Part shown: in pieces, positions 1-15,720 of the stretch
How the letters are laid out: each line of letters begins with the position of its first letter
How positions within the stretch are numbered: the stretch's first letter is position 1
Assembly (NCBI GenBank): GCA_002376965.1
Contig: DFOV01000240.1
Span: 10,829-26,548, forward strand
From: Gammaproteobacteria bacterium UBA3532
GTDB lineage: Bacteria > Pseudomonadota > Gammaproteobacteria > Enterobacterales > UBA3532
DNA length: 15,720 nucleotides
Direction: 5' to 3'
Made by a program: the position numbers and the translations under genes
Notes under the pieces: model-generated
Database searches by the model: none
What the model saw: the letters and a program-made list of their open reading frames with translations, nothing else
What the model was told of the DNA's origin: nothing

Positions 1-1466
1 AACAAGCCGATGAGAACCGCGCTGAATATTGCGATAGATAAACGGCGTTGGCGCATTATCGGGCGCAGAGTGGCAAGCAGCATTTTACTTAGCAAATAGT
101 TATCTTGCTCTTTGTCAGCTATTTCTGAACGCGATTTATTGGCTGGGACTAAAGCTAACCAGGCAGGGATGAGCAATAGCGAGATAATCATGGCTACAAA
201 CATGCCAAACGACATGCAAATGCCGAAGTGACGCAGATTGCTGATGCTGGTGGTGGTCGACACTAAGAAGGTGATGCAGGTGGTGATGGTGGTTAAGATT
301 ACAGGCGATGCCATCAAGCGCAGGGTGTTTTTAACCGCCAGCATTTGGGTGGAGGCATGGCGACGTTGATGGTAGTACTCCGCCATCACATGAATGGCAT
401 CCGATGAGCAGATGGTGATCAGAAAAACCGGCAGCGCGGCGGTGATTAAATCCATTGGAATACCCACCAATGCCATACCGCCCATCGTCCACACCGTACA
501 CATAATCACATTAACAAGCGGGATAACGACGCCAAGCGTCGAGCGAAAGAAACAGGCTAGCACCAGGCTAACCAGCAAAACGACCGCTGGAAACAAGGTC
601 GCCATATCGGCATCCATGATTTTCTTTTGCTCGGCGAAAAAAACAGGAACACCGCCGATGTAGACATCGTCGGTTAATTCAGGGTGTTGCTGTTGATAAT
701 CAGCGACCATTTGCTGAACGGCGTCATAGGCCCGAACTTGTCCTTCGGCGTCGTCTTCTAGCACGCTAATTTCTAATACAATCAGCCCAACTTTTCCAGC
801 GCGGTCGATGACGCCCATATCCATTAGCTCGTTATTCATCACTGCTTTTTCTATGATGGCGACATCGGGGGTAGCTGAGTTAACCGAGATAGCGGCGCGC
901 AGCGTGCCATCTGCTTCTAGGTACACATTCTCCGAAGCTGACATACCCGCCATTTCACGGATCGGATCGAGGCGTTCGGCGATGATTTGCCATTGTTTTT
1001 TGTCCCTTGCTGACAGTGGCCAGTGTTGGGCTTTTTCTGCGGCTTCGCGCACCAATGGAATATCGGTTTGATCCAGTCCATTATTGAGAATGGCGGTTGT
1101 CAGGTCGTTCAGTTCTGGAACATTGGGATAGCGCTCGGCCATATCGCGCAGGTTTTTCACATCGGCTTCATTGGTGAAGTGCAGCTGACGTACATCTTCG
1201 GTTAATTCAAACAGCGCCTTTAAGCTGGTGGGGTTGAAGATGCTGTTGTCGTTGTAGAGGGTGATTAATATCGAGTCATAGGTGCCGGTGAACTTGTCAC
1301 GCATTTCATATAGCGGAGCGCGAGCGGGGTGATCCTCTGGCAATAAATAGGGGTTGCTGTCTTCTGACAGGTATTGCGTGAAGTAGCCGAACGCCAGGGT
1401 GAGCAGGGTTAGGCTGAGTAGGATGGTCTTGGGAAATTTTCCAACAAATCGTAAATAGGCTTCCAT
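1..1466 (-). CDS. RND/MMPL-family exporter, N-terminal part (cut by window edge)
   Basis: This is an inner-membrane proton-driven exporter of the RND superfamily, MMPL-like branch. 488 residues are visible and the rest lies beyond position 1. The visible part has one transmembrane segment (about residues 14-30), a large periplasmic domain (about 31-288), then a run of hydrophobic segments (about 290-307, 311-330, 340-362, 388-405, 415-437) and the start of another at about 476. A charged SSDAIHV motif at 354-360 sits in the position where this family has polar residues inside the membrane. The start is ATG at 1466, with AAGGAG 6-7 nt upstream. The gene follows the LolA-like gene after a 202-bp gap holding a structured repeat. 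MMPL pumps next to LolA-like proteins are typical of lipid-export operons such as aryl polyene clusters. I infer that it exports the operon's product; the cargo cannot be seen. The family call is firm. Confidence 0.93.
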   Translation of the reverse strand, partial: MEAYLRFVGKFPKTILLSLTLLTLAFGYFTQYLSEDSNPYLLPEDHPARAPLYEMRDKFTGTYDSILITLYNDNSIFNPTSLKALFELTEDVRQLHFTNEADVKNLRDMAERYPNVPELNDLTTAILNNGLDQTDIPLVREAAEKAQHWPLSARDKKQWQIIAERLDPIREMAGMSASENVYLEADGTLRAAISVNSATPDVAIIEKAVMNNELMDMGVIDRAGKVGLIVLEISVLEDDAEGQVRAYDAVQQMVADYQQQHPELTDDVYIGGVPVFFAEQKKIMDADMATLFPAVVLLVSLVLACFFRSTLGVVIPLVNVIMCTVWTMGGMALVGIPMDLITAALPVFLITICSSDAIHVMAEYYHQRRHASTQMLAVKNTLRLMASPVILTTITTCITFLVSTTTSISNLRHFGICMSFGMFVAMIISLLLIPAWLALVPANKSRSEIADKEQDNYLLSKMLLATLRPIMRQRRLSIAIFSAVLIGL

Positions 1467-1520
1467 GGTGTTCTCCTTTTGTCCTTGTATAACCTGAGTA
1501 TTTATCAACATTGGTGCGAT

Positions 1521-1649
1521 GTTGGTGGTCGCTATAAGCAAATCAGAACCTTGGCCAGCGGTAAATACGCGCTCCCGGCGCGGATTTACCTCAAAAATCG
1601 TCCTGATTTTTGTGGCCAAGAACCTGCTTCACTTATAGCCACCACCAAC
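1521..1649. repeat. Nested inverted-repeat element with two internal hairpins
   Basis: The outer arms at 1521-1538 and 1632-1649 pair over 18 bp with one mismatch. Pairing resumes at TTGGCCA, 1551-1557 with 1613-1619. Between them lie two further hairpins. In the first, 1560-1566 pairs with 1584-1590, and after one mismatch 1568-1572 pairs with 1578-1582. In the second, 1592-1599 pairs perfectly with 1605-1612 around a 5-nt loop. The whole could fold as a branched junction in RNA or single-stranded DNA. It fills most of the gap between the LolA-like gene and the exporter. No T-run follows either end, so it is not an ordinary intrinsic terminator. I see no target-site duplication. It could be a MITE- or REPIN-like mobile repeat, or an RNA processing or stability element inside the operon. 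Confidence 0.75.
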
Positions 1650-1668: not shown

Positions 1669-2478
1669 TTAGCGTAAACTAGGAACCTTTGCTGGCGAAA
1701 TGCCGCGTTTCAGGCTGCGCTTGCTAACCAGTTTGTCGTCCAACGCGACGTTGTATTCCACATCGCTAAAAATCATTTCCGAGCGTTTGCCATTTTCAAG
1801 GTTGACCATTTCGGATGTCATAATGGTCCAAACACCTTGAACCTGCTCGACTTCGGTTGATTGTTGGGCTTTAAACACGATGCCTTTGGCATTGTAATAA
1901 TGCTGCTGCATCACCACGTCGCGCTCTTTATCGATCCATACTTTGGTTTTGTGATAACCGGTTTTATTGATCACATCCTGAGAAGCGGCAACACGCTCGA
2001 TAACCCAGGTTGGTCGCCCTAAAACCTCTTCTTCACCTAGCAATGTGGATTGGTAATCATTAACGCGAATCTTATCCAAGTCGGAATAGTTAAAGGTCGA
2101 TCCCATAAACGAGCCGCGTTTATCGTTTGAACCCAAGCGACGGGTCTTACGAAATGCGGGGAGATACATCCATTGATCGTCGGGTTGGGCAGTGTTTTCG
2201 TCATAATTGGCGATTAAAAAAGACACGCCGCGAACGTCAGATGGCGAGTGAAAATGCATTAGCGCGCGCTCTTCTTGATTGGGTAAATCTTTTTGCAACA
2301 TATACAAATGGCGCTCGCGTAAATCACCATCACTGCTATAGAGCTTGAGAGTAACCTGAGTGCTATAGGATGCACCGTCGTCGCGATCACGGGCCTGAGT
2401 TAAAATACTATTCGCATCAGGCATCGCAAAGCTGAAAGAAGAAGAAAGAAAAAGTAAGCCAGTAATAAACGTTCTCAT
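1669..2478 (-). CDS. LolA-like outer-membrane lipoprotein-sorting family protein, periplasmic
   Basis: This 269-residue protein has a clear signal peptide: a basic start, a hydrophobic stretch, and predicted cleavage after residue 18 (SFA before MPDA). The mature part resembles the family annotated as outer membrane lipoprotein-sorting protein. These proteins have a LolA-like half-barrel that can hold an acyl chain. Typical features here are the DDQWMYLPAFRKTRRL stretch near residue 100 and the GSFMGSTFNYSDL stretch near 125. Such proteins usually sit beside RND/MMPL pumps and are thought to carry a hydrophobic cargo across the periplasm. The gene starts at ATG 2478, 13 nt after the barrel gene, with AAGGGA upstream. 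I infer that it shuttles the operon's lipid from the exporter to the outer membrane. The family call is good; the role is inferred. Confidence 0.85.
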   Translation of the reverse strand: MRTFITGLLFLSSSFSFAMPDANSILTQARDRDDGASYSTQVTLKLYSSDGDLRERHLYMLQKDLPNQEERALMHFHSPSDVRGVSFLIANYDENTAQPDDQWMYLPAFRKTRRLGSNDKRGSFMGSTFNYSDLDKIRVNDYQSTLLGEEEVLGRPTWVIERVAASQDVINKTGYHKTKVWIDKERDVVMQQHYYNAKGIVFKAQQSTEVEQVQGVWTIMTSEMVNLENGKRSEMIFSDVEYNVALDDKLVSKRSLKRGISPAKVPSLR

Positions 2479-2491
2479 GATGATTATTCCC

Positions 2492-3697
2492 TTAAAATGT
2501 GTAAGTCACTGATGTCCAAATACGGTCGTTGTCTTGAAACTGGCCAAAGAAATTGGTTTCTTCGCCATCTAATAAATCGATATTAAGCTGCCACGCCCAG
2601 TTAGCCGATGGGCGATAGGTCAGCTTGGATTGATAAAGCTGACCGCCACCCAGGCTATCCGAATGGCTAACGGCAATGCGCAAAGCAATGGTGTCTGAGG
2701 CTAGTTGGCCATCCGCTGACAGGGTATACAGTGGGTCTTTTTCTGGTGTTGCCAACATGTCGTTCCAGCCAGCAATACGCCGGTCGCTGTATTGGCCAGT
2801 GATCAGCCAGTTTCCCATCAGGTAGTCAACGCCAACCAACCACTGTTGTTGATGATGGGCCGAATGACTACCATCAATATAGCCAAACTCGCGCTGGTGG
2901 AAAAATGCCCACTCACCGCGCATTACCACAGGGCCGAATGGTCGAGATAAGGATGTACCAAGCATGGATTCGCGGTGGAAATCCTCAGATACGCCGGTCA
3001 GATCAAAGGATATGACCGGCATATCGTTGTAGCCATGAAAGCCATAGAAAGCCACGTCGGTATCAGCGACAAAACCTTGCAATCGAACGCCAACCTCAGT
3101 GCCTGATGGCTCGTTGGTCGACATATCGCTGGGTAAGCCCAAGTCGAACTCACTGCCTGAGGCTGGCAATTCGTTTGCTTTGGCATCCAAAATCCACATA
3201 CCATCCAAGCTCCAGTTACCGAAGCTGGTCTCGGCACGCAGCATCGGCAGGCTCATGCGGTAGTCATCGATATCAAATAAAACAAAGTCCTTTAAATCAA
3301 GGGGGTTAACCACATCAACCACACGAAGATCATCGGCCTGTCCCCAAACGACTTTCTGATAGCCCAGGGATAAGTCAACGCTACCAGCAAACCAGCGTAA
3401 ATAGGCATCATCGACCCATAGCCGTGATTGGTATTCGTCTTTGGCAGCGTCGGAGTAGCCGTCGTGCCAGTCATAGGCACTGTCATATTCCACTCGGCCC
3501 TGAAATTTGGCGCTCAGTGTGCTGCCCTGAAATTCCAATAATAACCCCAGCGCATTCACCTGGCTGGTCAATTGATCTTCACCATGCAGACGTTGCGCAG
3601 CAGACAGGCTGATGCTCGGTTGGTGATACCATTCGCCCGCGAATGTTGCCGCCGGTATCGAACATATCAGCGCGAAAGTCGAGATTAAACGCCGCAT
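2492..3697 (-). CDS. Outer-membrane beta-barrel protein, DUF1302-like
   Basis: This 401-residue protein has a signal peptide with cleavage predicted after residue 20 (ATFA before GEW). It then has alternating short aromatic-rich strands and ends in VTYTF; a final Phe is the usual beta-barrel assembly signal. The segment around residues 110-150 (QKVVWGQADDLRVVDVVNP) resembles the conserved WG(E/Q)AD..R..DV.NP block of DUF1302-type barrels. ATG 3697 is chosen because GGAGG lies 6 nt upstream. The gene overlaps the end of the preceding dehydrogenase by 13 nt, which suggests coupled translation. Together with the LolA-like protein and the RND pump it forms a three-layer set: outer membrane, periplasm, inner membrane. 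Whether it is a channel for the product or an assembly site cannot be told from sequence. Confidence 0.85.
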   Translation of the reverse strand: MRRLISTFALICSIPAATFAGEWYHQPSISLSAAQRLHGEDQLTSQVNALGLLLEFQGSTLSAKFQGRVEYDSAYDWHDGYSDAAKDEYQSRLWVDDAYLRWFAGSVDLSLGYQKVVWGQADDLRVVDVVNPLDLKDFVLFDIDDYRMSLPMLRAETSFGNWSLDGMWILDAKANELPASGSEFDLGLPSDMSTNEPSGTEVGVRLQGFVADTDVAFYGFHGYNDMPVISFDLTGVSEDFHRESMLGTSLSRPFGPVVMRGEWAFFHQREFGYIDGSHSAHHQQQWLVGVDYLMGNWLITGQYSDRRIAGWNDMLATPEKDPLYTLSADGQLASDTIALRIAVSHSDSLGGGQLYQSKLTYRPSANWAWQLNIDLLDGEETNFFGQFQDNDRIWTSVTYTF

Positions 3698-4452
3698 CCG
3701 AAACCTCCATCCACCACGATACTTTGGGCGGTGATCATCTTGGCGGCAGGTGAAGTGAGAAACATCACCGTATCTGCAACATCGCTCGCCGAAATCAACT
3801 GGCGCAGGGGGATGCGCTTTTTAATCTGGCGAATGACCTGTTTCACCTGCAAGCCCATCACTGCGGCTTGTGGTTCTAATTCGCGGCGTAACATTGGAGT
3901 GTCTACCCAGCAAGGCAGTACGGCATTAACGGTGATGCGTCTTGCCGCCCAGTCCATTGCCAGCGCTTTAACCAATCCGAGTAAGGCATGTTTAGACGTG
4001 ACATAACCGGTGTTGACCGCTTTACCGGCGCGGCCTAACACCGACGACATCACCACAACCCGTCCGTCGTCCAAGATAAAATCCGTTAGCATAGCCAACA
4101 GGCGTTGGGTGGCGTGAAGGTTTACATTAAGCACCAAGTCCCAGGTTGCGCTGTCTTTGATATCGTTTTCGATGCCGATAGCATGGCTGATAACAATATG
4201 GTCAACACCGCCACGCCCTTCAACTTCAGCCACGAGCTTTTCACTCACTTCCTGGTGATTGGTCAGATCGATAGCGATGGGGGTGATGCGCTGTTGCTGC
4301 GTATCTGGGCGGTCATTGACCAATGTCGATAAGCCATCGCTATTGATATCAACCGCGATAACGTCAAAGTCGGTTTGTTCGAGGTATTTTGTTACCGTTG
4401 CTGCGCCAATTCCGCTGGCTGCTCCGGTGATAATCACAGATTCCTTGCGCAT
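3685..4452 (-). CDS. Short-chain dehydrogenase/reductase, probably NAD(H)-linked
   Basis: This 255-residue classical SDR has the cofactor motif TGAASGIG at residues 9-16, catalytic Ser136/137, Tyr150 and Lys154 (YVTSK), and a C-terminal VDGG. An Asp at position 35, at the end of the second strand (AVDINS), usually selects NAD(H) over NADP(H). The usual NNAG motif is replaced by SHAIG near residue 89, a modest departure. The start is ATG 4452 with GGAG 6 nt upstream, 9 nt after the preceding FabG-like gene. Its place next to a second SDR in a ketosynthase operon suggests that it acts on a carrier-bound or released acyl intermediate, as a ketoreductase or as an alcohol dehydrogenase. The fold is certain; the substrate is unknown. 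Confidence 0.9.
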   Translation of the reverse strand: MRKESVIITGAASGIGAATVTKYLEQTDFDVIAVDINSDGLSTLVNDRPDTQQQRITPIAIDLTNHQEVSEKLVAEVEGRGGVDHIVISHAIGIENDIKDSATWDLVLNVNLHATQRLLAMLTDFILDDGRVVVMSSVLGRAGKAVNTGYVTSKHALLGLVKALAMDWAARRITVNAVLPCWVDTPMLRRELEPQAAVMGLQVKQVIRQIKKRIPLRQLISASDVADTVMFLTSPAAKMITAQSIVVDGGFGCGV

Positions 4453-4461
4453 GATGTTCTC

Positions 4462-5211
4462 CTATCCTAAAACCAGTCCGCCATTGACATGAAGTATTTC
4501 GCCGCTGATATAGTGATTCGCTGGATCAGCGATAAACATCACCATGCGGGCAATATCTTCCGGGGTGCCAAGCTGTTTGGCCAGCATGCGTTTTTTGATC
4601 GCTTGCTCATATTGCTCCAGCAATGCGCCTGCCATATCGGTTTTAATCACGCCAGGGGCAACACAGTTAACCCGAATGCCTTTGCTGGCAACTTCCACTG
4701 CCAAGGCGCGAGTAAAGGCCTCAACCGCACCTTTGGATGCGGCATATTGGGTTTGGCCTTTGTTTGGTTTAGTGGCCGAAATCGAAGAGATATTCACAAT
4801 GTTGCCACTGCGTGCTGGCAGCATCAGCTTGAGTGCTGCGCGACTAAAAAGCAAAGGCCCGATAACATTGGTATTCAGCACTTGCCGCATATCGCTCAAC
4901 GGCATGGTGGCCAGCAAGCCGTCTTTGGTTTGGCCTGCGTTGTTCACCAATAAATCAATGCGGCCATAGACTTCATCAATAGCGCCAAAAAACTGCTCAA
5001 CGTCTGCTTCGTTGCTGATATCGAGCGCTTGAGCGACGACTGCTGCGCCTTTGGCTTCCAATTCTTGGCGCAAGCTATCGGCATGGGCCTGGCTGCTGCG
5101 GTAGCAAAAGGCAATATCATAGCCCTTTGCGGCGGCTTCGAGGGCGATAGCGCGGCCAATTCCGCGCGTAGCACCGGTAATAAGAGCGACAGGTTTGGTT
5201 GAATGGTTCAT
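4462..5211 (-). CDS. FabG-like 3-oxoacyl-[ACP] reductase
   Basis: This 249-residue SDR is close to FabG in length and motifs: TGATRGIG at 12-19, VNNAG at 89-93, Asn115, Ser142/143, and the catalytic Tyr156 and Lys160 (YAASK). Arg38 after the second strand (CYRSS) fits NADPH use. FabG enzymes reduce the 3-keto group of ACP-bound chains after each condensation, which suits an operon with its own carrier protein and ketosynthases. It starts at ATG 5211, where the last base of the upstream TAA stop is the A of the start codon (TAATG); GGAG lies 8 nt upstream. That arrangement implies translational coupling with the fusion gene. It is an operon-dedicated paralogue and probably not the housekeeping fabG, since the usual fabD/acpP neighbours are absent. 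Confidence 0.92.
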   Translation of the reverse strand: MNHSTKPVALITGATRGIGRAIALEAAAKGYDIAFCYRSSQAHADSLRQELEAKGAAVVAQALDISNEADVEQFFGAIDEVYGRIDLLVNNAGQTKDGLLATMPLSDMRQVLNTNVIGPLLFSRAALKLMLPARSGNIVNISSISATKPNKGQTQYAASKGAVEAFTRALAVEVASKGIRVNCVAPGVIKTDMAGALLEQYEQAIKKRMLAKQLGTPEDIARMVMFIADPANHYISGEILHVNGGLVLG

Positions 5212-8060
5212 TACATAGACTCCGTTTCTTTGCTTTGCGCTAGCCCCAATCCGTGAGCAGTAGCGTATTCGAGGATGGTTTTTACTTGGGTTTTATCGAT
5301 ATTGCCGTAAGAAAAATTGGCTTGATATTGCTCTAGCCCCAGCACAATGGTTTCGGCCATGCAGGCGTATACTTGCCCCTGCTTGAGATAAGCTCTGGCG
5401 CGAGGGTCGAGGCTTTCACCATTAGGTGTGCTAACGATACCGCCACGTAAACAGCGAATGTCGGCACGTTTCGCCAGCAGTTCATCCGACAAGTTGTGAG
5501 GTACGGCGATATCACAAACCAGCGCATGTTGCTTGATATGGTGCGGCTGGATAAAGGCCTCGGCAGAGTTAGCTGCACACACCAGCAAGTCAGCATCGGC
5601 AATGTCGTCAATGGATTCAGACACTTTCACCAGCTGTGAGTGTGGTGCATTTTGCTCAAACCAGCGATAAACCTTTTGGCCGTGGTGTTTTTGACGGCGA
5701 AATTCAGTCGTCAGCCAGCCGTTGTCCTGAGCAAAGGGTGCCAGCATTGCAGCAATGCCTTTGCATTGCTGTGGTTGATTGACCAAATCAAGGAGCGCAC
5801 ATTCATACACCTGTCCGGCAGTTGCCATAACGCGGCTGGCAGAACCAGGGCGACCGCTTCCAACCAAGGTTAGTGACGGGCAGTATTCGGCAAGCAAGGT
5901 ACTGTAAACCGAACCGATATTACCCGCTGCGCCAATCACAGCGGCGCGTTGAATATGGCGTTTATCTTCGCGGATGGCTTTTTGGATAGCTTCAGCCGCC
6001 ATAGCTACCGTTAACGCATTGCCGGTGGTCAGGTGGATGCCTGAAGTGTTTACCGCTTTGCCATTGTTAGTAACGATGGAGGTGAACATGCCTAGCCCTG
6101 CAACCGAGCAGCCATCATTACGCGCCGCTGTTAGACGGTCGTCGACGGCTTGACGAATCACTTCAAGCTCATTGTTCTCAAGCATTTCGCCGATTTGCTG
6201 TGAGGTGGCGTTGATGGGGTAGAGGGTAAAGTCAACCGTCTTGCCCTGGGCAGAGCGAATGCGAACCGGTTCAAATGGCGCGACACGTCGGTCAAATGAA
6301 AGACGGTTTAGCAAAGCATCGGTTTGCTTTTCGGCAAGATGAGCCAGCGAAGGATCGACTTCTTTCAGCCATTCGCTGGATATTAAGTGGTTAACAAAGG
6401 CAGCTTTGGCATCCGCTTCGCCTACTGGGCGCACAATATTCAGCGACTGATACCAGGGGCGAAAATCCCGTGGTGCCTCGACGGGTTTGGCATCGTCGAT
6501 CAAATAGTCAAGCAGGTAACCGGTGTCCTGAAAGCGCAGGGCTAAACAAACACAGCGCAATGCATCGACCAAACGCTTGATATTGCCATCACTGAGCTGA
6601 ATACTCGGTTCTACCCGCACCACATTTCCGGCGCTAGCAGGCGGCGCAATACGAATGCCATGGCGCATCAATAAATGGCCGGTGACCAGATAGCCAATAG
6701 CACCTTGATAGGCGGTGGTGCGCAACATGATTGATAGGGCGTCGTGTTGCTCTTTAAACACAATGCCTTGTAATAGCCCTTTACCACGAATGTCGCTGAT
6801 GATATCGGGAAACTCTTGTTGCAGCTGAATTAGTGCCTCAAACAGCGCGTCGCCGCGTTCGCCAACTTGTCGAATTACTGCCTGATTGTTGGCCGTGATG
6901 TAACGTACAAATGCACTTGCTACACGGGCCGACCAGTCATCTTCACCAAAGGTTGAGCTTTGAACCAAATCGAAGCCTTCGGCATATTGGCTTTGGCGGA
7001 TCGCGACCAGGCCTATTTTGGCCACGCCGCCGCCCAAGCCTTTTGATAGCACAACGTAATCTGGCTTTAATCCGATTTGGCTACCGGCCAGGAAACTGCC
7101 ACAGCGGCCACAGCCTGATTGCACTTCATCGGCAATCAGGGGGCAGCCAAGCAGATCGCGCGCGCTGTGCAAGGCTTCTGCATCATGGGGTGCTAAGCTA
7201 TACACGCCGCCTTCGCCTTGCACTGGCTCGACCAGAATAGCGCCAACTCTAGGAATAGGCATTAACTGAAGTGTCAGGCCATGCCGACGCTTTTTCAGTT
7301 GTAGCGCGTAGGCTCGTTCTTCTTTGAGCAGGCTTTTTAAGGCATGGGGTGTCATATCTTCTGTGGCCATAAATCGTGTGTTTAAGCCAAAGCGACGACA
7401 CGGCTGGCGATACATATCGCCATGGGTTAGTTGAATGGTGGTGTTTAATTTGCCGTGGAAGGCTTTTTTCAGCGCGATGAACACTGGCGGACGCTGCAAG
7501 GTTTCAACATTCCAGGCTGAAATAAAGTCCCAGCGAGCTTCGCTGTCTAAATCGCGCAGCTCGGGGAATAAGGCGATAACCTCATCATCTATATGCCAGG
7601 ATTGGTTGAGATCGATAGCGCTGTGTTGGCGGGTTAGTTGCTCGCCAATTTCGTCCAGCATACGGCCACGTTTTACTTCTGCATGTTTCAACGCAATCTC
7701 AACCGACTCGGCGCCTGTTGAGGTGAAGGCACATAAAAATTTCTCGTTCCATTGGGTTTCCTGCTGCAATATGGGGTTTAGCAGTGAAGCCAGTTCACCG
7801 GCACCCTGGCGGATCGAAAACTGATTATGAAAAGGTACGCATTGTTGGACTTGCTCGGTAAGGGCACGGATCATCGCTGGATGATTGTGGCCAAGCAATA
7901 AGGCACCATAGCCACCCAGTAAATCCAAAACTGGCTGCTCGATGCCTTGGTCATCGTAATAATAAAGGTATTGCTGGCTGGCGCGGTGGAAGGTTTTATC
8001 CAGGCCAACGCTGTGCAAAGCTGCTGCTAATGTCGGTTTGCAATAGGTTTGATAATTCAT
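5211..8060 (-). CDS. Class III aminotransferase fused to an acyl-ACP reductase (AAR-like) domain
   Basis: 949 residues in two enzymes. Residues 1 to about 505 are a fold-type I, class III PLP aminotransferase: TGAES at 115-119, FHGK at 201-204, EPVQGEGG near 279, DEVQSG at 311-316, and the PLP lysine K340 in VVLSKGLGGG. Residues of about 545-949 align along their whole length with cyanobacterial long-chain acyl-ACP reductase as I remember it: LGMFTSIV near 656, LTTGN near 677, the nucleotide-binding GAAGNIG at 710-716, and YACMAE with Cys900 at the place of the AAR nucleophile, then NFSYG near 915. AAR reduces acyl-ACP to a fatty aldehyde with NADPH; a class III aminotransferase could turn that aldehyde into a primary amine. 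I infer that this is the chain-release enzyme of the operon. The start is ATG 8060 with AAGGAG upstream. PigE and TamH in prodigiosin and tambjamine pathways also join a reductase and an aminotransferase, but from memory in the opposite order and with a different reductase. Confidence 0.92.
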   Translation of the reverse strand: MNYQTYCKPTLAAALHSVGLDKTFHRASQQYLYYYDDQGIEQPVLDLLGGYGALLLGHNHPAMIRALTEQVQQCVPFHNQFSIRQGAGELASLLNPILQQETQWNEKFLCAFTSTGAESVEIALKHAEVKRGRMLDEIGEQLTRQHSAIDLNQSWHIDDEVIALFPELRDLDSEARWDFISAWNVETLQRPPVFIALKKAFHGKLNTTIQLTHGDMYRQPCRRFGLNTRFMATEDMTPHALKSLLKEERAYALQLKKRRHGLTLQLMPIPRVGAILVEPVQGEGGVYSLAPHDAEALHSARDLLGCPLIADEVQSGCGRCGSFLAGSQIGLKPDYVVLSKGLGGGVAKIGLVAIRQSQYAEGFDLVQSSTFGEDDWSARVASAFVRYITANNQAVIRQVGERGDALFEALIQLQQEFPDIISDIRGKGLLQGIVFKEQHDALSIMLRTTAYQGAIGYLVTGHLLMRHGIRIAPPASAGNVVRVEPSIQLSDGNIKRLVDALRCVCLALRFQDTGYLLDYLIDDAKPVEAPRDFRPWYQSLNIVRPVGEADAKAAFVNHLISSEWLKEVDPSLAHLAEKQTDALLNRLSFDRRVAPFEPVRIRSAQGKTVDFTLYPINATSQQIGEMLENNELEVIRQAVDDRLTAARNDGCSVAGLGMFTSIVTNNGKAVNTSGIHLTTGNALTVAMAAEAIQKAIREDKRHIQRAAVIGAAGNIGSVYSTLLAEYCPSLTLVGSGRPGSASRVMATAGQVYECALLDLVNQPQQCKGIAAMLAPFAQDNGWLTTEFRRQKHHGQKVYRWFEQNAPHSQLVKVSESIDDIADADLLVCAANSAEAFIQPHHIKQHALVCDIAVPHNLSDELLAKRADIRCLRGGIVSTPNGESLDPRARAYLKQGQVYACMAETIVLGLEQYQANFSYGNIDKTQVKTILEYATAHGLGLAQSKETESM

Positions 8061-8090: not shown

Positions 8091-8957
8091 TTAAAGCGAA
8101 GGCGTGGTTAATCTAACCTGTGCCTGATTGCCATAGCTGTCCTGGCTATGGATAGTAGTGTTCTGTTGCTGCGTGTTAGATATTGCCAGTTGCTCTGCAA
8201 TGCTATACAAGATGCCACCCCAGCGTGGAGCGCTAGTTGGCTCGGCGTTGGTGCCGGAGCGTACCTCTAGTTCAGATAACAATGGCAAGCTATCGGTATC
8301 GGTTTGACGGCCCAGCACTAAAGCAACGGCACCTTGTCCGGCCAATAGGGCATTCTCTTCAGATAGAGCATTGTCTGCAGATATGGTGGCTTCGAGCTGA
8401 TCACATGCGGTGCCCGACATAACGACCAGCGCGGCATCAATATAACCGGCTTGTAGTTGAAAACAGGCTTCGCTTAACGCCGCCATAGCACCCGACTGAT
8501 CACGCAAAAAAGCGCTGCAATCGCCACGAATCTCCCAGAGTACACTGATCAAACCCATCAGGTTGTTACTTAACCCTTTGATGGCCAAAAACGGATTGAC
8601 GGCTTTGCTGTTCCACAACGTATCGTAAAGCGGCGCTTCGTCCGTCGCTTGGCTAAAGCCTTGATGGTAGTCATCCAAATCGGAATGTTGGAATCCGGCC
8701 TGACTGGTATACAGCCCAAAGCGTTGGTCAAACTGTTGTGGCTCAATCTCGGCCATGGCGAGCGCCTTTTCAACCGCTGCCACTGCTTCGGCTGCCACCC
8801 GACCACCAAAACGTTGGTATTTGCGCGGCAGGGGAGCAACATCTGTATACCAGGCAGGCAGCTCGTTAGCCAGTGAGGTAGGCGCGAGTGGCGCAGATGC
8901 GGGTAATGTAGACGTGGCGGCAACTGCATAACCGTGAATAGCGATGGCATTAGTCAT
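8091..8957 (-). CDS. Half-size ketosynthase-like protein with Gln for Cys (chain-length-factor-like)
   Basis: A 288-residue protein matching only the N-terminal half of a beta-ketoacyl synthase. Aligned with the adjacent complete KS, its FLRDQSGAMAAL falls on the NGACAGAAQAI active-site block, so Gln154 replaces the nucleophilic Cys. Gln at this place is the mark of chain length factors and KSQ domains. The C-terminal half with the HGTST and GH histidines is missing; the tail after about residue 245 is low-complexity and polar. The truncated KS-like partner (ApeC) of aryl polyene clusters is a known parallel. ATG 8957 is preferred over an upstream in-frame start at 8987 because GGAGG sits 8 nt before it and it overlaps the KS stop by 8 nt (ATGACTAA). 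I infer a heterodimer partner of the KS just upstream, setting chain length or specificity. Confidence 0.85.
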   Translation of the reverse strand: MTNAIAIHGYAVAATSTLPASAPLAPTSLANELPAWYTDVAPLPRKYQRFGGRVAAEAVAAVEKALAMAEIEPQQFDQRFGLYTSQAGFQHSDLDDYHQGFSQATDEAPLYDTLWNSKAVNPFLAIKGLSNNLMGLISVLWEIRGDCSAFLRDQSGAMAALSEACFQLQAGYIDAALVVMSGTACDQLEATISADNALSEENALLAGQGAVALVLGRQTDTDSLPLLSELEVRSGTNAEPTSAPRWGGILYSIAEQLAISNTQQQNTTIHSQDSYGNQAQVRLTTPSL

Positions 8958-10239
8958 GAGCGTATCCTCCAAAAACCAGGCAGGCATTCAAGCCGCCAAA
9001 CCCAAACGAGTTGCTTAATGCATATTTAAACGAGGCAGGGCGCGCATGTTGTGCTACATAATCCAAATCACACTTGGCATCCGGGGTTTCGAGGTTGATA
9101 GTGGGCGGCATGATTTGGTGATATAGCCCCATCACGGTAGCAATCGCTTCTGGTGCTGCGGCCGCTGAAATCCAATGCCCAATCATAGATTTGGTCGAAG
9201 ATACCGCTGGATAGCTGGGTGCTCTATCGCTAAATACGGTTTTAATGGCTGTTGTCTCGATGGCATCATTGAGTGGCGTTGATGTACCGTGAGCATTGAT
9301 ATATTCGATATCCTGACTGGTTACCGCCGCATCGTCCAACGCCGCTTGCATGGCCTTGATGGCACCGTGCCCTTCGGGGTGAGGTGCCGTCACTTTATAT
9401 GCATCCATGGAACTGCCATAGCCTTCGACACGGGCATAGATGGTGGCACCACGCGCCAATGCAGACGCTTCACTTTCCAACACCAGAAAAGCACCGCCTT
9501 CGCCAGCGACTAAACCCGAGCGGGCTTGATCAAAAGGGCAGCATAGCTTGTCTTTGCGCGAAGAGGAGGTTGCGGTTGCGCCCAGCAAGAATAAGCCAGA
9601 CATCACGCGGGTGTTCGTAACAGCATCGGCACCGCCCGCCAGCATCACATCGACTTCGCCGCGCTGAATGGCTTTAAACGCCATGCCAATGGCCTGTGCC
9701 GCACCAGCACAAGCGCCGTTGACGTTAAGGATGGGGCCGGTCATCGCCAGCTTTTCAGCAATGGCTGCCACCATGCTGTCGTTGGTGACGGTTAAGCCAG
9801 AGTGCTCTGTTGGTTGATGACGAACCAAGGCTTCGGGGTAGCTACCTAAAAGGTCGAGTTCCTGCATTTCAGACTCATGCATCTCAGGCACACCGCTACA
9901 AGCGGCGCAACCAATGCGCTTGCTGTTGTCCAAACCCGCGTCCTTAAAGGCTTCAAGAGCGGCAACCAGACCAAAATAGCCACGTCGTTCTAACAAGGGT
10001 GCGTTATCAAAGTGCTGCGGAAATTGTTGCCGTAGCTTGGAGAGCGAAACCGTCGCAGCGTACTTAACCGGATAATCTTCAGCACCCTGCGGTTGCCAGG
10101 GTGTAATGGCGCTTTTGCCAGATTCGATGGCTTGCCAGTAGCTTTTTTTGTCATGGCCAAAGCTGCTGACAATCCCCATGCCGGTGACGACGACCTTGTG
10201 TTTGTTAAATACAGAGTCTTTATTAGTATGCTTAAGCAT
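8950..10239 (-). CDS. Beta-ketoacyl-ACP synthase, FabF-like, complete catalytic triad
   Basis: A 429-residue KAS II-type condensing enzyme. It has the nucleophile Cys177 (NGACAGA), His317 (HGTSTPLND), Lys350 and His355 (KSMIGH), and the C-terminal NSFGFGG. The HWISAAAAPEA stretch after the second His is richer in Ala than the usual GAAG. It should extend ACP-bound acyl chains with malonyl-ACP. ATG 10239 is chosen because GGAGG is 5 nt upstream; a start at 10254 would add five residues without support. It overlaps the preceding KS-like gene by 8 nt (ATGCTTAA) and the following half-KS gene by 8 nt. These couplings suggest that the three KS-like proteins are made in fixed proportion and assemble together. 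Confidence 0.94.
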   Translation of the reverse strand: MLKHTNKDSVFNKHKVVVTGMGIVSSFGHDKKSYWQAIESGKSAITPWQPQGAEDYPVKYAATVSLSKLRQQFPQHFDNAPLLERRGYFGLVAALEAFKDAGLDNSKRIGCAACSGVPEMHESEMQELDLLGSYPEALVRHQPTEHSGLTVTNDSMVAAIAEKLAMTGPILNVNGACAGAAQAIGMAFKAIQRGEVDVMLAGGADAVTNTRVMSGLFLLGATATSSSRKDKLCCPFDQARSGLVAGEGGAFLVLESEASALARGATIYARVEGYGSSMDAYKVTAPHPEGHGAIKAMQAALDDAAVTSQDIEYINAHGTSTPLNDAIETTAIKTVFSDRAPSYPAVSSTKSMIGHWISAAAAPEAIATVMGLYHQIMPPTINLETPDAKCDLDYVAQHARPASFKYALSNSFGFGGLNACLVFGGYAHD

Positions 10240-11329
10240 GTTGACCTCCGACAACCAAATAACACAGTTGGCCGTGGTGCCCTTGAGCGATCACCAATAT
10301 GGTTTCTGAATTCAGGCGCACACTGGCTGGAGAGAAAATATGCGATATGCCTTGCTGACGTTGATGCATTGCCATCGCCAGATTCACCGCGTGAATAGCG
10401 CCGGTTGCACCGGTAAAGCCGGTTAGCCTGTCGAGATAGCACAGTTTGACGCCGGGCAAATAGTCGTAAAGGCGTTTTTCCTGACTGCCTTTTAAGCTAA
10501 AGCGGCCACTAAAAATAACTTGCTGAGGCAACGGAATATTGCGACCAGCTAACTCGCTTAATAGCTCGTCGAGGGCCGGAAAGTCGTTGGCCTCTTGGCT
10601 AACAAAGGCACGTTTGACCGCAAGCAGGCAGCCTTCGGCATTGTCGGCATCGGCGCTGGCAACAATGGATGCAGCGGATTCGGTTGGAAATGCGCCTGGA
10701 TATTGCCATTGGCGAATCATGTCGCGATAGGTTAAAAAATACCACGGGGTGATTTTTTGTGGCCCTGCAGCGATAAGCGCTTGCTCGACTTTTTGTTCGT
10801 GAATGGTAAACCAGGCTTCACTGATAGCTTGAGCGCCAGCATCGGCAAAGGGCGAGAATACGGCATTGGTGCCGGTGATATTCAGCAGTTGAGCGATATG
10901 GCTTGCTGCCGTGCTATTTAATAGTGTCAGGCCAGCCAGTGGTTTGGTATCTGTCAGCATTTGGTTGGCGTAGTCATTCAAATCACCATTAAATGCCAAA
11001 GGCTGGTCGTCGTCTTCGCAATCGACAACGCCCAAACCGAGAAATAGTCCGGTTTTTTCTGATGGTGAAGAGGCTACGGCCTGTTGCCAGCCACCAACGG
11101 CGGCCTCAATCACCCAGCGTGACTGACGCTCAGAGGTTTTGCGCACCATCCGACCTGCGCCGCATTCTTTGAGATCGGTATCTTCTAAGGTGGCGGCTTC
11201 GGCTACCAGCTCAAGGCTGCGTTCACTTTGTATGGCTTGGGGAACAACTTTGCGGCCATCCAACACATCAGCGATGCCGTTTAAGCCAGGGATGATTTCT
11301 TTGCCGGTTTTTAAATAGATTGCTTTCAT
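10232..11329 (-). CDS. Degenerate ketosynthase-like protein, no catalytic Cys or His
   Basis: A 365-residue protein with a recognisable thiolase/KS fold but no active site. The block aligned to the KS nucleophile motif reads SPFADAGAQAI, which puts Asp163 or a neighbouring Ala where Cys should be. The HGTST loop is absent. The second His region reads LTGFTGATGAIHAV, keeping the GATGA turn but not the His. Other KS landmarks survive: GLFLGLG near 94-100 and FPTESAASIVAS near 217, in the place of the usual GxGA(A/G) strand. It is shorter than a complete KS (about 410). It starts at ATG 11329 with AGGAG 8 nt upstream. Non-catalytic KS paralogues beside active ones are usually heterodimer partners, so I infer a chain-length-factor-like or scaffolding role. 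A repurposed thiolase-fold enzyme is possible but less likely. Confidence 0.8.
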   Translation of the reverse strand: MKAIYLKTGKEIIPGLNGIADVLDGRKVVPQAIQSERSLELVAEAATLEDTDLKECGAGRMVRKTSERQSRWVIEAAVGGWQQAVASSPSEKTGLFLGLGVVDCEDDDQPLAFNGDLNDYANQMLTDTKPLAGLTLLNSTAASHIAQLLNITGTNAVFSPFADAGAQAISEAWFTIHEQKVEQALIAAGPQKITPWYFLTYRDMIRQWQYPGAFPTESAASIVASADADNAEGCLLAVKRAFVSQEANDFPALDELLSELAGRNIPLPQQVIFSGRFSLKGSQEKRLYDYLPGVKLCYLDRLTGFTGATGAIHAVNLAMAMHQRQQGISHIFSPASVRLNSETILVIAQGHHGQLCYLVVGGQHA

Positions 11330-11368: not shown

Positions 11369-12607
11369 TTAGTTGGTCCGTGAAAAAATAAGCGTGGCGT
11401 TTTCTCCTCCAAACCCGAATGAATTGCTTAAAACATGTTGCAGTTTCTGGGGTTGGCCGTGTTTAACAATATTGAGCAAGGGCTCGTCTTTGCCTGGTTG
11501 ATTGAAATTCAGTGTCGGTAGTACCTGTTGGTTTTCGAGGCTAAGCACGCTAAGCACCGCTTCGATAGCTCCACTGGCTCCCAAGGAGTGGCCCAGCGCC
11601 GACTTGGTTGAGGTTACTGAAACATCGTGACTAAAAAGCTGATTGATAGCGCGGCTTTCTGCCTGATCATTGCTAGGAGTTGATGTGCCGTGGGCGCTGA
11701 TATGGTCGATATCTGAGCTGGATAGATCCGCTTCTAGTAGTGCCTGGCTCATGCACTTAGCGTAATATTTGCCATCGCTTTCGGTTGATGTGAATTTGTG
11801 GGCTTCGCTTTGGCGTACGCCTGCGCTTAACTTCGCGAGCGGTTTAGCCCCGCGTTTTAACGCGTGTTCCAATGACTCCATGACCACAAAAGCAGATCCA
11901 TCAGCTAACAGGCAGCCACTGCGGTCTTTATCAAATGGTCGGCAAACTTCTGTGGGGTCTAAGCGCTGATTGGTGCTTAACGCGCCGAGCTTAAAGAAGG
12001 GGAGTTGCATCAATGGATGGGTGGCATGCTCTGTGGCACCGCATATAGCAATATCCAAATGGCCATGCTGAATGCGGCGCATGCCGCTGATGATGGCTGT
12101 GGCCCCAGCTGTGCAAGCATCGCCATAGGTCATGGCTGGGCCGTTGTTTTGATAATAGGCAGCGAGAGTTTCAGCGCATTGTTGAGGACGGATTTTGTCC
12201 ATGACATGCTGATATTCTGGCGCTTCTCTTCCTTGTTGCTGTGCTTGCCATAAACCATGAAGGGTTGATAACGACATCAGGGTTTTATTGCAACCAACAA
12301 AAATGCCAGCTTGCTGGATTTGGTCGCGAGTGAGTCCAGTTGTTTGAACGGCATTATCAGCCGCATATAAACCCATAATGGATGCTTGATTTATCTGTGG
12401 TTGTTGAAGGATCGAATAGTGATGCTGAATGGTCAGGAGTTGATCCTGCGCCATAGGAGAGCAGGTTTGCTGCAACTGACCGTGATCTGCATCCAGCACA
12501 TGTTGTTGTAGGAGCGACCGTCCGTGGTACAAGGCATCGAAAAGCGGATGGCGCTGGTTATAGCCTGGCACGCAAATGCCCAAGCCGGTGATTACTACCG
12601 TTTTCAT
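11369..12607 (-). CDS. Beta-ketoacyl-ACP synthase with complete catalytic triad (first KS of operon)
   Basis: A 412-residue KAS I/II-type condensing enzyme. It has Cys165 in YGDACTAGA, His306 in SAHGTSTPSND, Lys335 and His340 in KSALGHSLGASG, and NSFGFGGENA near the C-terminus. The Asp before Ala-Cys is less common than the usual Thr or Asn. It is Gln-rich at the N-terminal side (residues 45-130). Two ATGs are adjacent at 12610 and 12607; AAGGGA lies 2 nt before the first and 5 nt before the second, so the second is more likely. It follows the ACP gene after 85 bp containing a hairpin and precedes the degenerate KS by 39 bp. I infer condensation on the operon's own ACP, possibly paired with the degenerate KS next to it. 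Confidence 0.93.
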   Translation of the reverse strand: MKTVVITGLGICVPGYNQRHPLFDALYHGRSLLQQHVLDADHGQLQQTCSPMAQDQLLTIQHHYSILQQPQINQASIMGLYAADNAVQTTGLTRDQIQQAGIFVGCNKTLMSLSTLHGLWQAQQQGREAPEYQHVMDKIRPQQCAETLAAYYQNNGPAMTYGDACTAGATAIISGMRRIQHGHLDIAICGATEHATHPLMQLPFFKLGALSTNQRLDPTEVCRPFDKDRSGCLLADGSAFVVMESLEHALKRGAKPLAKLSAGVRQSEAHKFTSTESDGKYYAKCMSQALLEADLSSSDIDHISAHGTSTPSNDQAESRAINQLFSHDVSVTSTKSALGHSLGASGAIEAVLSVLSLENQQVLPTLNFNQPGKDEPLLNIVKHGQPQKLQHVLSNSFGFGGENATLIFSRTN

Positions 12608-12633
12608 CATAGTCCCTTATGTTTGGTTGGTGA

Positions 12634-12692: not shown

Positions 12693-13148
12693 CTAAGCGG
12701 CCTCCGTTTCCAATACGGCCTTGACCTGCTGCTGAATAAGGTCGTCGCCAGAAAGCCCGCTGTTCTTGATTGCTGTGCAAAGGTTCACCCAGTGACAGAC
12801 TTTGGTATCAGCAAAGATCTCAGCCAGGGTTTTGCCCGGATAAACGTCCTCTTCACTATATCGGTTAGGGCCAGAGCGCAATAGTTCAGCTCCCAGCTCT
12901 GTCACCGCATCGTTATCGAGCATGTCGTTGGCATCGCCGAGTATGTCTTCTGCATGCATCATGACGGTTTTTTGAGGCATCTTAATACTGAGCTGTTTGC
13001 CTAAAGAAAATGACATATCAACAATATCCAGTGAATCCGCACCTAAATCTGCAACGATGCGCGAATCCAGCTCGATTTCATCGATTTCCATTTCCAATAC
13101 GTCTGCAATCACTTCAATGATGTCATCAACGAGTTGTGTACTTGCCAT
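12693..13148 (-). CDS. Acyl carrier protein with a long C-terminal extension
   Basis: A 151-residue acyl carrier protein. The phosphopantetheine site is Ser39 in LGADSLDIVD, within a normal four-helix ACP module (residues 1 to about 80, acidic). Ser39 must be modified by a phosphopantetheinyl transferase, which is not in this window. A further 70 residues follow (about 82-151), with GPNRYSEEDVYPG near 93-105 and a Trp/Cys-containing helical part near 115-130; typical FAS ACPs lack this. ATG 13148 is chosen because GGAG lies 9 nt upstream and the ACP domain begins exactly there. An in-frame ATG at 13373 with AAGGGA upstream would add 75 residues, but these are not ACP-like and coincide with a series of RNA hairpins. 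As the first gene of the operon it should hold the growing chain for both KSs, the reductases and the AAR domain. Confidence 0.92.
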   Translation of the reverse strand: MASTQLVDDIIEVIADVLEMEIDEIELDSRIVADLGADSLDIVDMSFSLGKQLSIKMPQKTVMMHAEDILGDANDMLDNDAVTELGAELLRSGPNRYSEEDVYPGKTLAEIFADTKVCHWVNLCTAIKNSGLSGDDLIQQQVKAVLETEAA

Positions 13149-14281: not shown

Positions 14282-14491
14282 CTACCTGTTTCTTTCAACG
14301 TTTGCCATCGCCTTGGCGCTGAGGTCTCTGACAGATATTTGATCGGTGAAGTTTTTTGATTGCCATTCAGAATAGTCAAAAGGCTCCCTTAATATCAGAG
14401 AAATGAACTTTTCGGCTTCAACTTCGCCCAAAGCGCTAATTAGAGCCTCCATCCCTTTCAATTTAATTTCAGTGTCTGTTGCAATACTCAT
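14282..14491 (-). CDS. Small protein paired with PIN nuclease, probable antitoxin
   Basis: A 69-residue protein, mostly helical in appearance, with LKGMEALISALGEVEAEKFISLI near the N-terminus and REPFDYSEWQ near residue 35. I recall similar small proteins beside PIN-domain proteins in many bacteria, but cannot check this here. It starts at ATG 14491 with GGAG 6 nt upstream; the TTG three bases earlier is not needed. The start lies inside the PIN gene, a 23-nt overlap, so translation is likely coupled. A role as antitoxin is inferred from size and position. Its order after the nuclease is the reverse of the more common layout. Confidence 0.7.
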   Translation of the reverse strand: MSIATDTEIKLKGMEALISALGEVEAEKFISLILREPFDYSEWQSKNFTDQISVRDLSAKAMANVERNR

Positions 14492-14918
14492 CAATTTCTC
14501 CAGCGGCCCTTAAAGGGTTCATAACCTTTATGCTCGATATACTTGCTAACCTCTTTAGAAGTTTATCATCAGTTGAAAGAAAATAATCACAATTTGATTC
14601 GATTGCACAAGATACATGCAACGCATCTTTGGGTGTTACACCAAATTCCACCATTGACTCAGCTCTAGCAATAATTTCTTCGGTTTCTTGAACATCTGAA
14701 TTGGCTATTGCTTTCCATTTCTGAATGGCGGAACGCTTCTCTTTAAACGGATTAAAGCTGTTTTCATATTCGAGAATGTAAGACCACACAAGCTCGATTT
14801 CTTTATTTTTGATTTTCTCCTGAATAAACAGCTTGGCCTCAGCTTCGATTTTTATTCTGATTTGTTGCTGGTCGTCAAACGGTCTATTGAAACAACAATT
14901 ATCCAAGTAAACTCTCAT
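14469..14918 (-). CDS. PIN-domain nuclease, probable toxin (VapC-like fold)
   Basis: A 149-residue PIN-domain protein. The expected acidic residues of the metal site are present: Asp6 in VYLDNCCF, Glu50/Glu52 in ILEYE, Asp98 in TPKDALH, and Asp117/118 in LSTDDK. PIN proteins of this kind cleave RNA with Mg2+ or Mn2+ and often act as toxins. The N-terminal YLDNCCFNRPFDDQ is characteristic of a PIN subgroup rather than of classical VapC. It starts at ATG 14918; the upstream ribosome-binding site is weak. The frame ends inside the small partner gene, with which it forms a two-gene unit. Base composition is more AT-rich than that of hemW and of the biosynthetic operon, which suggests acquisition. 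The target RNA is unknown. Confidence 0.85.
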   Translation of the reverse strand: MRVYLDNCCFNRPFDDQQQIRIKIEAEAKLFIQEKIKNKEIELVWSYILEYENSFNPFKEKRSAIQKWKAIANSDVQETEEIIARAESMVEFGVTPKDALHVSCAIESNCDYFLSTDDKLLKRLASISSIKVMNPLRAAGEIDEYCNRH

Positions 14919-15060: not shown

Positions 15061-15720
15061 CTATTCCGCCTCAAAAACATTTACACTATCATTTAAAAAG
15101 TTAAACCCTGCCTCTGTTGTTTTGAGACGGGGTTTAGTTTTTTCGATTGGGCTAAGCAGACCCTGTTCGACGCCGCTTTGCCACAGGTGCTCAATGGCGG
15201 TAAACGGCATTTGGCTATGTTGCTCAAAAATATTTACCGGCACGCCATTCTTTAGCCGTAGTGCATTTAGCATAAACTCATAAACGATATCGCTTTTCCC
15301 AAGTGTGTTCTCACCAGCGATAAATGACAGGTTGTTCATATACTGCTTTGGGTGGCGGTATTTGTGAAAGCGCTTGATGCCGCTTGCGCTTGTTAGCTTG
15401 GCGTGGGCACCGGCACCGATGCCTAGGTAATCACCAAACTGCCAGTAGTTGGTGTTGTGTCGGCATTGCTGGTCGGGCTTGGCATAGGCTGATACTTCGT
15501 ACTGGCTGAATCCTGCATTAGCCAGCATCTGTTGACCTTGCTCTTGTATGTCCCAGATGCCTTCATCTTCTGGAAGTGGGGGCGGGGAGTGGTAAAAAGC
15601 GGTATTTGGTTCAATGGTTAGTTGATACCAGGATAGATGAGCCGTGTTGAACGAAATAGCCTGCTGCAGATCGGCAAGTGCCTGTTGTGTTGATTGCTCA
15701 GGCAAGCCAAACATCAGGTC
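15061..15720 (-). CDS. hemW: HemW, radical SAM heme chaperone, C-terminal part (cut by window edge)
   Basis: 219 residues of the C-terminal half of HemW, long annotated as oxygen-independent coproporphyrinogen III oxidase-like. The frame stays open to the right edge, beginning DLMFGLPEQ, the characteristic HemW block after the radical SAM core. Other family landmarks follow: LSWYQLTIEPNTAF, QYEVSAYAKP, CRHNTNYWQFGDYLGIGAGAH, and a winged-helix-like C-terminal domain with EFMLNALRLKNGV. The CxxxCxxC iron-sulfur motif would lie beyond the window. HemW inserts heme into respiratory proteins. It is a housekeeping gene and marks the chromosomal edge of the accessory block. Its stop codon is at 15061-15063. 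Confidence 0.95.
   Translation of the reverse strand, partial: DLMFGLPEQSTQQALADLQQAISFNTAHLSWYQLTIEPNTAFYHSPPPLPEDEGIWDIQEQGQQMLANAGFSQYEVSAYAKPDQQCRHNTNYWQFGDYLGIGAGAHAKLTSASGIKRFHKYRHPKQYMNNLSFIAGENTLGKSDIVYEFMLNALRLKNGVPVNIFEQHSQMPFTAIEHLWQSGVEQGLLSPIEKTKPRLKTTEAGFNFLNDSVNVFEAE

Follow-up and report, generated by a model that had tools for sequence, protein, structure and literature searches.

Fusions of an aminotransferase and an acyl-ACP reductase

Proteins that join a class III aminotransferase (AT) to a reductase related to acyl-ACP reductase (AAR) are known from several pathways. PtTamH is described as a TA domain followed by an AAR-like TR domain, with C887 and K340. It converts the C12 acid carried on the ACP of TamA to the C12 amine with NADH and L-Glu; aldehyde is detected when L-Glu is left out, the enzyme is inactive with NADPH, and acyl-CoA yields nothing (PMC9594044). 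The N-terminal reductase of PigE is AAR-homologous and has Cys296. Its two steps were shown in lysate, purified PigE gave no product with a thioester, and channelling of the aldehyde was proposed by analogy with GluTR-GSAM (PMC8341465).

A third fusion, KecF, belongs to koreenceine biosynthesis. PMC6498172 reports 179 koreenceine-like clusters and sets out the kecA-K gene list and order in its section 9, and the published scheme draws the amine as a transient species that closes to a tetrahydropyridine. Antagonism is abolished when the kec cluster, or the fusion gene within it, is lost (PMC6498172, PMC10829540). According to PMC10829540, KecF itself had not been assayed in vitro; the paper reports transaminase activity for PP_2782 (PpKTFusion) and three fusions from thermophiles, whose reductase is described there without an AAR assay. 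The same paper counts 230 homologues with comparable clusters, including some from Cellvibrio, Photobacterium, Vibrio, Xenorhabdus and Streptomyces. Other reports describe a preference for medium chains in the KecG homologue PP_2783 and an "unusual predicted structure" for the ACP PP_2777 (PMC12490732), a koreenceine family of 664 members, for 654 of which Pseudomonas is given (a survey in preprint form, PMC11888242), and koreenceine clusters in sponge-derived pseudomonads as well (PMC12823289).

The fusion encoded in the window

The DNA considered here, called the window, is a stretch of 15,720 nucleotides whose features are collected in the table. Read on the plus strand, the fusion interval contains 44 stops; the ORF lies on the minus strand. 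The original prediction of a complete class III aminotransferase holds: PF00202 matches residues 33-501 (5.6e-46, 157.5 bits against a Pfam cutoff of 30.5), and the motifs TGAES (115-119), D311 and K340 are present.

Table. Predicted genes of the koreenceine-type cluster in the window
Feature	Coordinates	Strand	Basis
KecA-like acyl carrier protein, ORF of 226 aa	12693..13373	minus	PF00550; alignment with five kecA-position relatives
KecB-like ketosynthase, Cys-His-His kept	11369..12610	minus	PF00109, PF02801; alignment
KecC-like chain-length-factor-like protein, no Cys-His-His	10232..11329	minus	weak PF00109; alignment
KecD-like ketosynthase, Cys-His-His kept	8950..10254	minus	PF00109, PF02801; alignment
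KecE-like chain-length-factor-like protein, no Cys-His-His	8091..8987	minus	weak PF00109; alignment
AT-AAR fusion, KecF-like, 949 aa	5211..8060	minus	AT ~1-515, AAR ~545-949; K340, D311, G710/G713/G716, C900
KecG-like 3-oxoacyl-ACP reductase, FabG type	4462..5211	minus	PF13561; TIGR01830 254.2 bits, below cutoff 297.75
KecH-like short-chain dehydrogenase/reductase	3685..4452	minus	PF13561, PF00106
KecI-like protein, 401 aa	2492..3697	minus	homologues in kecI position in L097, L098, L134-L139
KecJ-like LolA-like protein	1669..2478	minus	PF17131 4e-54
KecK-like MMPL exporter, 5' part of ORF L007:9382-12447	1..1619	minus	PF03176

The C-terminal half is recognized less readily by family models. 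Its sole Pfam match is a weak one to Semialdhyde_dh (19.9 bits, below the cutoff of 26), and the cyanobacterial AAR equivalog TIGR04058 scores 64.7 bits against a cutoff of 449.7, which indicates homology short of equivalog status. A phmmer comparison with solved chains is clearer, and agrees with the predicted match of residues 545-949 to AAR: Synechococcus AAR (6jzq) is found at 2.6e-10 and PigE (4ppm), the best solved match of this half, at 1.1e-18. C900 shares a column with AAR C294 and PigE C296, numbered as printed for the chains, and the C294S chain 6jzz has Ser in this column. The glycine motif, G710-A-A-G713-N-I-G716, is intact.

The predicted model of the whole fusion has a pLDDT of 91.8 and a pTM of 0.85. 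Fold searches with this model listed AT chains alone and no AAR chain, and so the C-terminus was also modelled by itself; the AT and AAR folds of the predicted models both lie well above background. The protein has the parts of a TamH/KecF-type fusion, an N-terminal class III AT with its PLP lysine and a C-terminal AAR with nucleotide motif and catalytic Cys, and the agreement of ORF, domains, residues and model is far beyond chance. Together, fold, residues and the relative PtTamH support the prediction that a single polypeptide would reduce an acyl-ACP and then aminate the product.

One family model raises the question of whether this is a PigE-type enzyme of prodiginine biosynthesis. The PigE equivalog NF053554 is the best NCBIfam model for the fusion, at 262.5 bits (124.7 bits on the C-terminus), far below its cutoff of 850, and among solved chains PigE is also the one that the reductase half matches best, but its order of N-terminal reductase and C-terminal AT is reversed here, the AT is nearer CrmG, and the neighbours are a type II PKS set; domain order and gene context already contradict this reading. 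Origin of the fusion by simple permutation of PigE was likewise rejected, because the AT half is nearer CrmG (296.7 bits, against 74.7 bits for the best single stretch of PigE) and PigE is closest for the reductase half alone. PMC10829540 also suggests convergence.

Conservation of the catalytic residues

An alignment of 135 sequences comprises the window's fusion, the 120 homologues listed of 399 found (P0001 is the window's protein once more) and 14 ORFs from related loci; two longer ORFs, L102 and L021, are left out. K340, D311, G710 and G713 are present in all 135, and the G716 column varies, with Ala and Cys among the alignment rows shown. C900 is found in 128; of the other seven, four have Gly in this column, one has Ala, one has Ser, and P0018 has a gap.

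The six sequences in which Gly, Ala or Ser replaces C900 (P0072, P0074, P0077, P0089, P0095 and P0105) form one branch within the kec clade described below. The four with an organism given come from Streptomyces or Sphaerisporangium. L166, a close copy that likewise lacks the Cys, lies between type I PKS ORFs; Pfam lists no thioester-reductase family in these ORFs over 20 of the contig's 32 kb. Judged from the residue changes, the reductase half of the Cys-less relatives may be dead or changed.

The surrounding gene cluster

The genes are transcribed from one strand in the order ACP, KS, CLF, KS, CLF, fusion, FabG-type reductase, SDR, 401-aa protein, LolA-like protein and MMPL exporter. The first eight correspond to kecA-H in the published order, with an ACP, two KS/CLF pairs, the AT-AAR fusion and two reductases, and the last three are export-type genes homologous to those at the kecI, kecJ and kecK places of L097, L098 and L134-L139.

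Ketosynthases are told from chain-length-factor-like proteins by the Cys-His-His triad. No PDB match was found for the KecE-like protein. The KecI-like protein matched no Pfam family; our guess from its sequence is an outer-membrane barrel. The start of the KecA-like ACP is probably internal, at M76 (base 13148), where its relatives begin to align. This ACP (12693-13148) has a long C-terminal extension common to all five relatives aligned; four of the five carry a Cys-rich stretch, which is absent from the window and from Photobacterium. By the same kind of alignment, the true start of the kecK-like gene is probably near base 1466. The kecK ORF is interrupted outside the window by a run of N (L007:10519-10828) that ends directly before base 1. 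Elsewhere in the window, two minus-strand frames give weak matches below the Pfam cutoffs, one to a PIN domain (14469-14918) and one, at the contig end, to HemN_C (15061-15714).

Occurrence across genomes

A search for related loci with the single fusion protein gave no relative. A search by alignment kept 80 of 586 loci, many of which match in the AT part only, and the three Pseudomonas loci among the 80 include no full-length fusion. A first comparison covered 17 loci with fusion homologues. A megaplasmid of Photobacterium sp. DA100 (L097) has all 11 kec homologues in order, L098 (genome G403) has 10 of 11 in the same order, and a Streptomyces nigrescens locus has eight of 11 (A-H). At the other 14 the fusion occurs outside a kec cluster, in some cases beside single MMPL, LolA-like or KS matches.

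Within the genus Pseudomonas, entered through P. kitaguniensis (L057, genome G759), a threshold of 1e-60 picks out 27 of 298 genomes; 16 of the matches span the full length, at 37-39% identity, and 11 are lower-scoring. Twelve of these loci were examined. All six with full-length matches have kec clusters (11 of 11 genes in five, 10 in the sixth), and none of the six lower-scoring ones does. L142 and L143, from this genus, carry a second, more distant AT-AAR type with a FabF-like KS and a LolA-like gene nearby but outside any kec cluster. In the genus of S. nigrescens, P0077 matches 35 of 295 genomes at 39 places, 7 full-length and 32 in the AT part only. L167, one of the seven full-length places, has A-H in its flanks, and four others, with short flanks, have E-H visible. 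In the window's own lineage, 5 of 369 genomes of its class and 5 of 394 of its order match, its own genome counted each time.

A midpoint-rooted FastTree tree was built from 46 sequences (L020, L021, L102, L143 and L145 left out). One clade of 28 members (support 0.936) unites the window with all nine kec loci included and contains none of the 15 non-kec loci used. The six Cys-less sequences lie in it too, and thus membership alone does not prove the reaction.

AT-AAR fusions are thus also present away from kec clusters, at 14 of 17 and 6 of 12 loci examined. The original prediction knew of no described fusion of this kind; KecF (PMC6498172), PtTamH (PMC9594044) and PpKTFusion/PP_2782 (PMC10829540) are published examples. 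A new architecture is ruled out by these publications, and the novelty of the fusion is not supported.

Two longer frames met in the search have other architectures. In L102:9036-18080 (genome G088), a 3015-aa frame contains NRPS domains (two AMP-binding, one condensation, two carrier stretches) and a PilZ match, and ends in an AT and an AAR-like domain with GxxGxxG and the Cys motif; its neighbours include an MMPL exporter and an acyl-CoA dehydrogenase-like gene. From its domains, it would be an NRPS with built-in reductive-amination release. Literature searches on an NRPS with a terminal AT-AAR fusion and on the carmabin domain gave no title recognized as describing such a protein. In L021:9890-15898 (Nocardia sp. 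CNY236), a 2003-aa frame joins an AT-AAR to PEP-synthase/PigC/rifamycin-phosphotransferase-like domains, with a weak kinase-like end, and adjoins fatty-acyl-AMP-ligase-like and P450 genes. By analogy with TamH plus the condensing enzyme of tambjamine pathways, it may be an amine maker and ligase in one protein. The AT-lysine pattern has no match in either frame.

Proposed role and alternatives

The reading preferred here, with a probability of about 0.8, makes the fusion the release enzyme of a koreenceine-type (kecA-K) cluster, working by reductive amination in the manner of KecF and TamH. Starting from a fatty-acyl group on the dedicated ACP, the two KS/CLF pairs would build the chain, and the KecG/KecH-like reductases would process the bound chain. 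C900 of the AAR domain would then take the acyl group as a thioester, which NAD(P)H would reduce to the aldehyde, and the N-terminal PLP aminotransferase (K340) would aminate it. Given a 5-oxo group on the chain, which has been proposed for koreenceine, closure of the amine to a tetrahydropyridine would need no enzyme, and the KecIJK-like proteins would assist export of the product. The sequences directly show the architecture, the residues, the gene content and order and the clade, and modelling gives the predicted folds. We infer activity, substrate, ring and export for this fusion and cluster; passage from acyl-ACP through aldehyde to amine has been shown for the relative PtTamH.

Ring closure in this cluster is fairly likely. 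The original prediction had the chain released as a primary amine; by analogy with the published koreenceine scheme, that amine would be transient and, given cyclisation, probably an intermediate. The same enzyme chemistry could instead lead to a primary amine that stays linear, or to some other compound derived from the amine. Linear amines are what PtTamH makes (PMC9594044), KS and CLF have diverged in the window, and koreenceine has been shown in Pseudomonas only, in the literature found (PMC6498172). Such an outcome is unlikely: the eleven gene types of the window are those of koreenceine clusters, in the same order, and TamH is fed by an adenylation-ACP enzyme in its own cluster, according to PMC9594044.

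Much less probable still is a reading in which the AT takes an aldehyde made elsewhere and the AAR half plays little or no part. The six Cys-less relatives within the kec clade would fit this, as would the four homologous fusions whose C-terminal domains are reported without an AAR assay in PMC10829540, but C900 and the glycine motif are intact in the window's fusion, Pfam identified no second thioester reductase among the window genes scanned, and the PtTamH reductase acts on acyl-ACP (PMC9594044).

If the fusion is a KecF/TamH-type release enzyme, its product may differ from koreenceine. Between the window and the compared kec loci, KS and CLF share only ~30-55% identity, and the chain may therefore differ. 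A tentative, rather doubtful extension is that this divergent kec machinery makes an alkaloid or fatty amine unlike koreenceine, either linear or with another chain length or ring size, and that the fusion keeps the aldehyde between its two active sites. The window adds a further, divergent koreenceine-type cluster, export genes included, together with a distant TA-AAR enzyme that may prove useful in fatty-amine biocatalysis. It does not add a new enzyme class, because the fusion and its chemistry are already in print.

Comparison with known systems

KecF of Pseudomonas koreensis, as described in PMC6498172, has the same N-terminal AT and C-terminal AAR-like domain as the window's fusion, and its gene likewise lies between kecE- and kecG-type genes in a two-KS/CLF type II PKS cluster of the same order. 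The window's fusion differs in host lineage from the full-length Pseudomonas copies, to which it is ~37-39% identical. PtTamH of Pseudoalteromonas tunicata, from the tambjamine YP1 pathway, shares by its published description the domain order, the AAR-type reductase and even the number of K340, but its chain comes from TamA (adenylation-ACP) whereas the window's cluster is a type II PKS. PigE of prodigiosin biosynthesis (PMC8341465; 4ppm) also unites an AAR-type reductase and a class III AT in one protein; it differs in its reversed domain order and in its AT, that of the window being nearer CrmG. The original prediction had assigned PigE and TamH another reductase type and another domain order. 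Both reductases are in fact AAR-homologous (PMC8341465, PMC9594044; phmmer agrees for PigE), and the difference in order stands for PigE and fails for PtTamH. CrmG (5dds) and Synechococcus AAR (6jzq, 6jzu) match the two halves of the fusion in fold and catalytic residues, but they are separate enzymes, each with a single activity.
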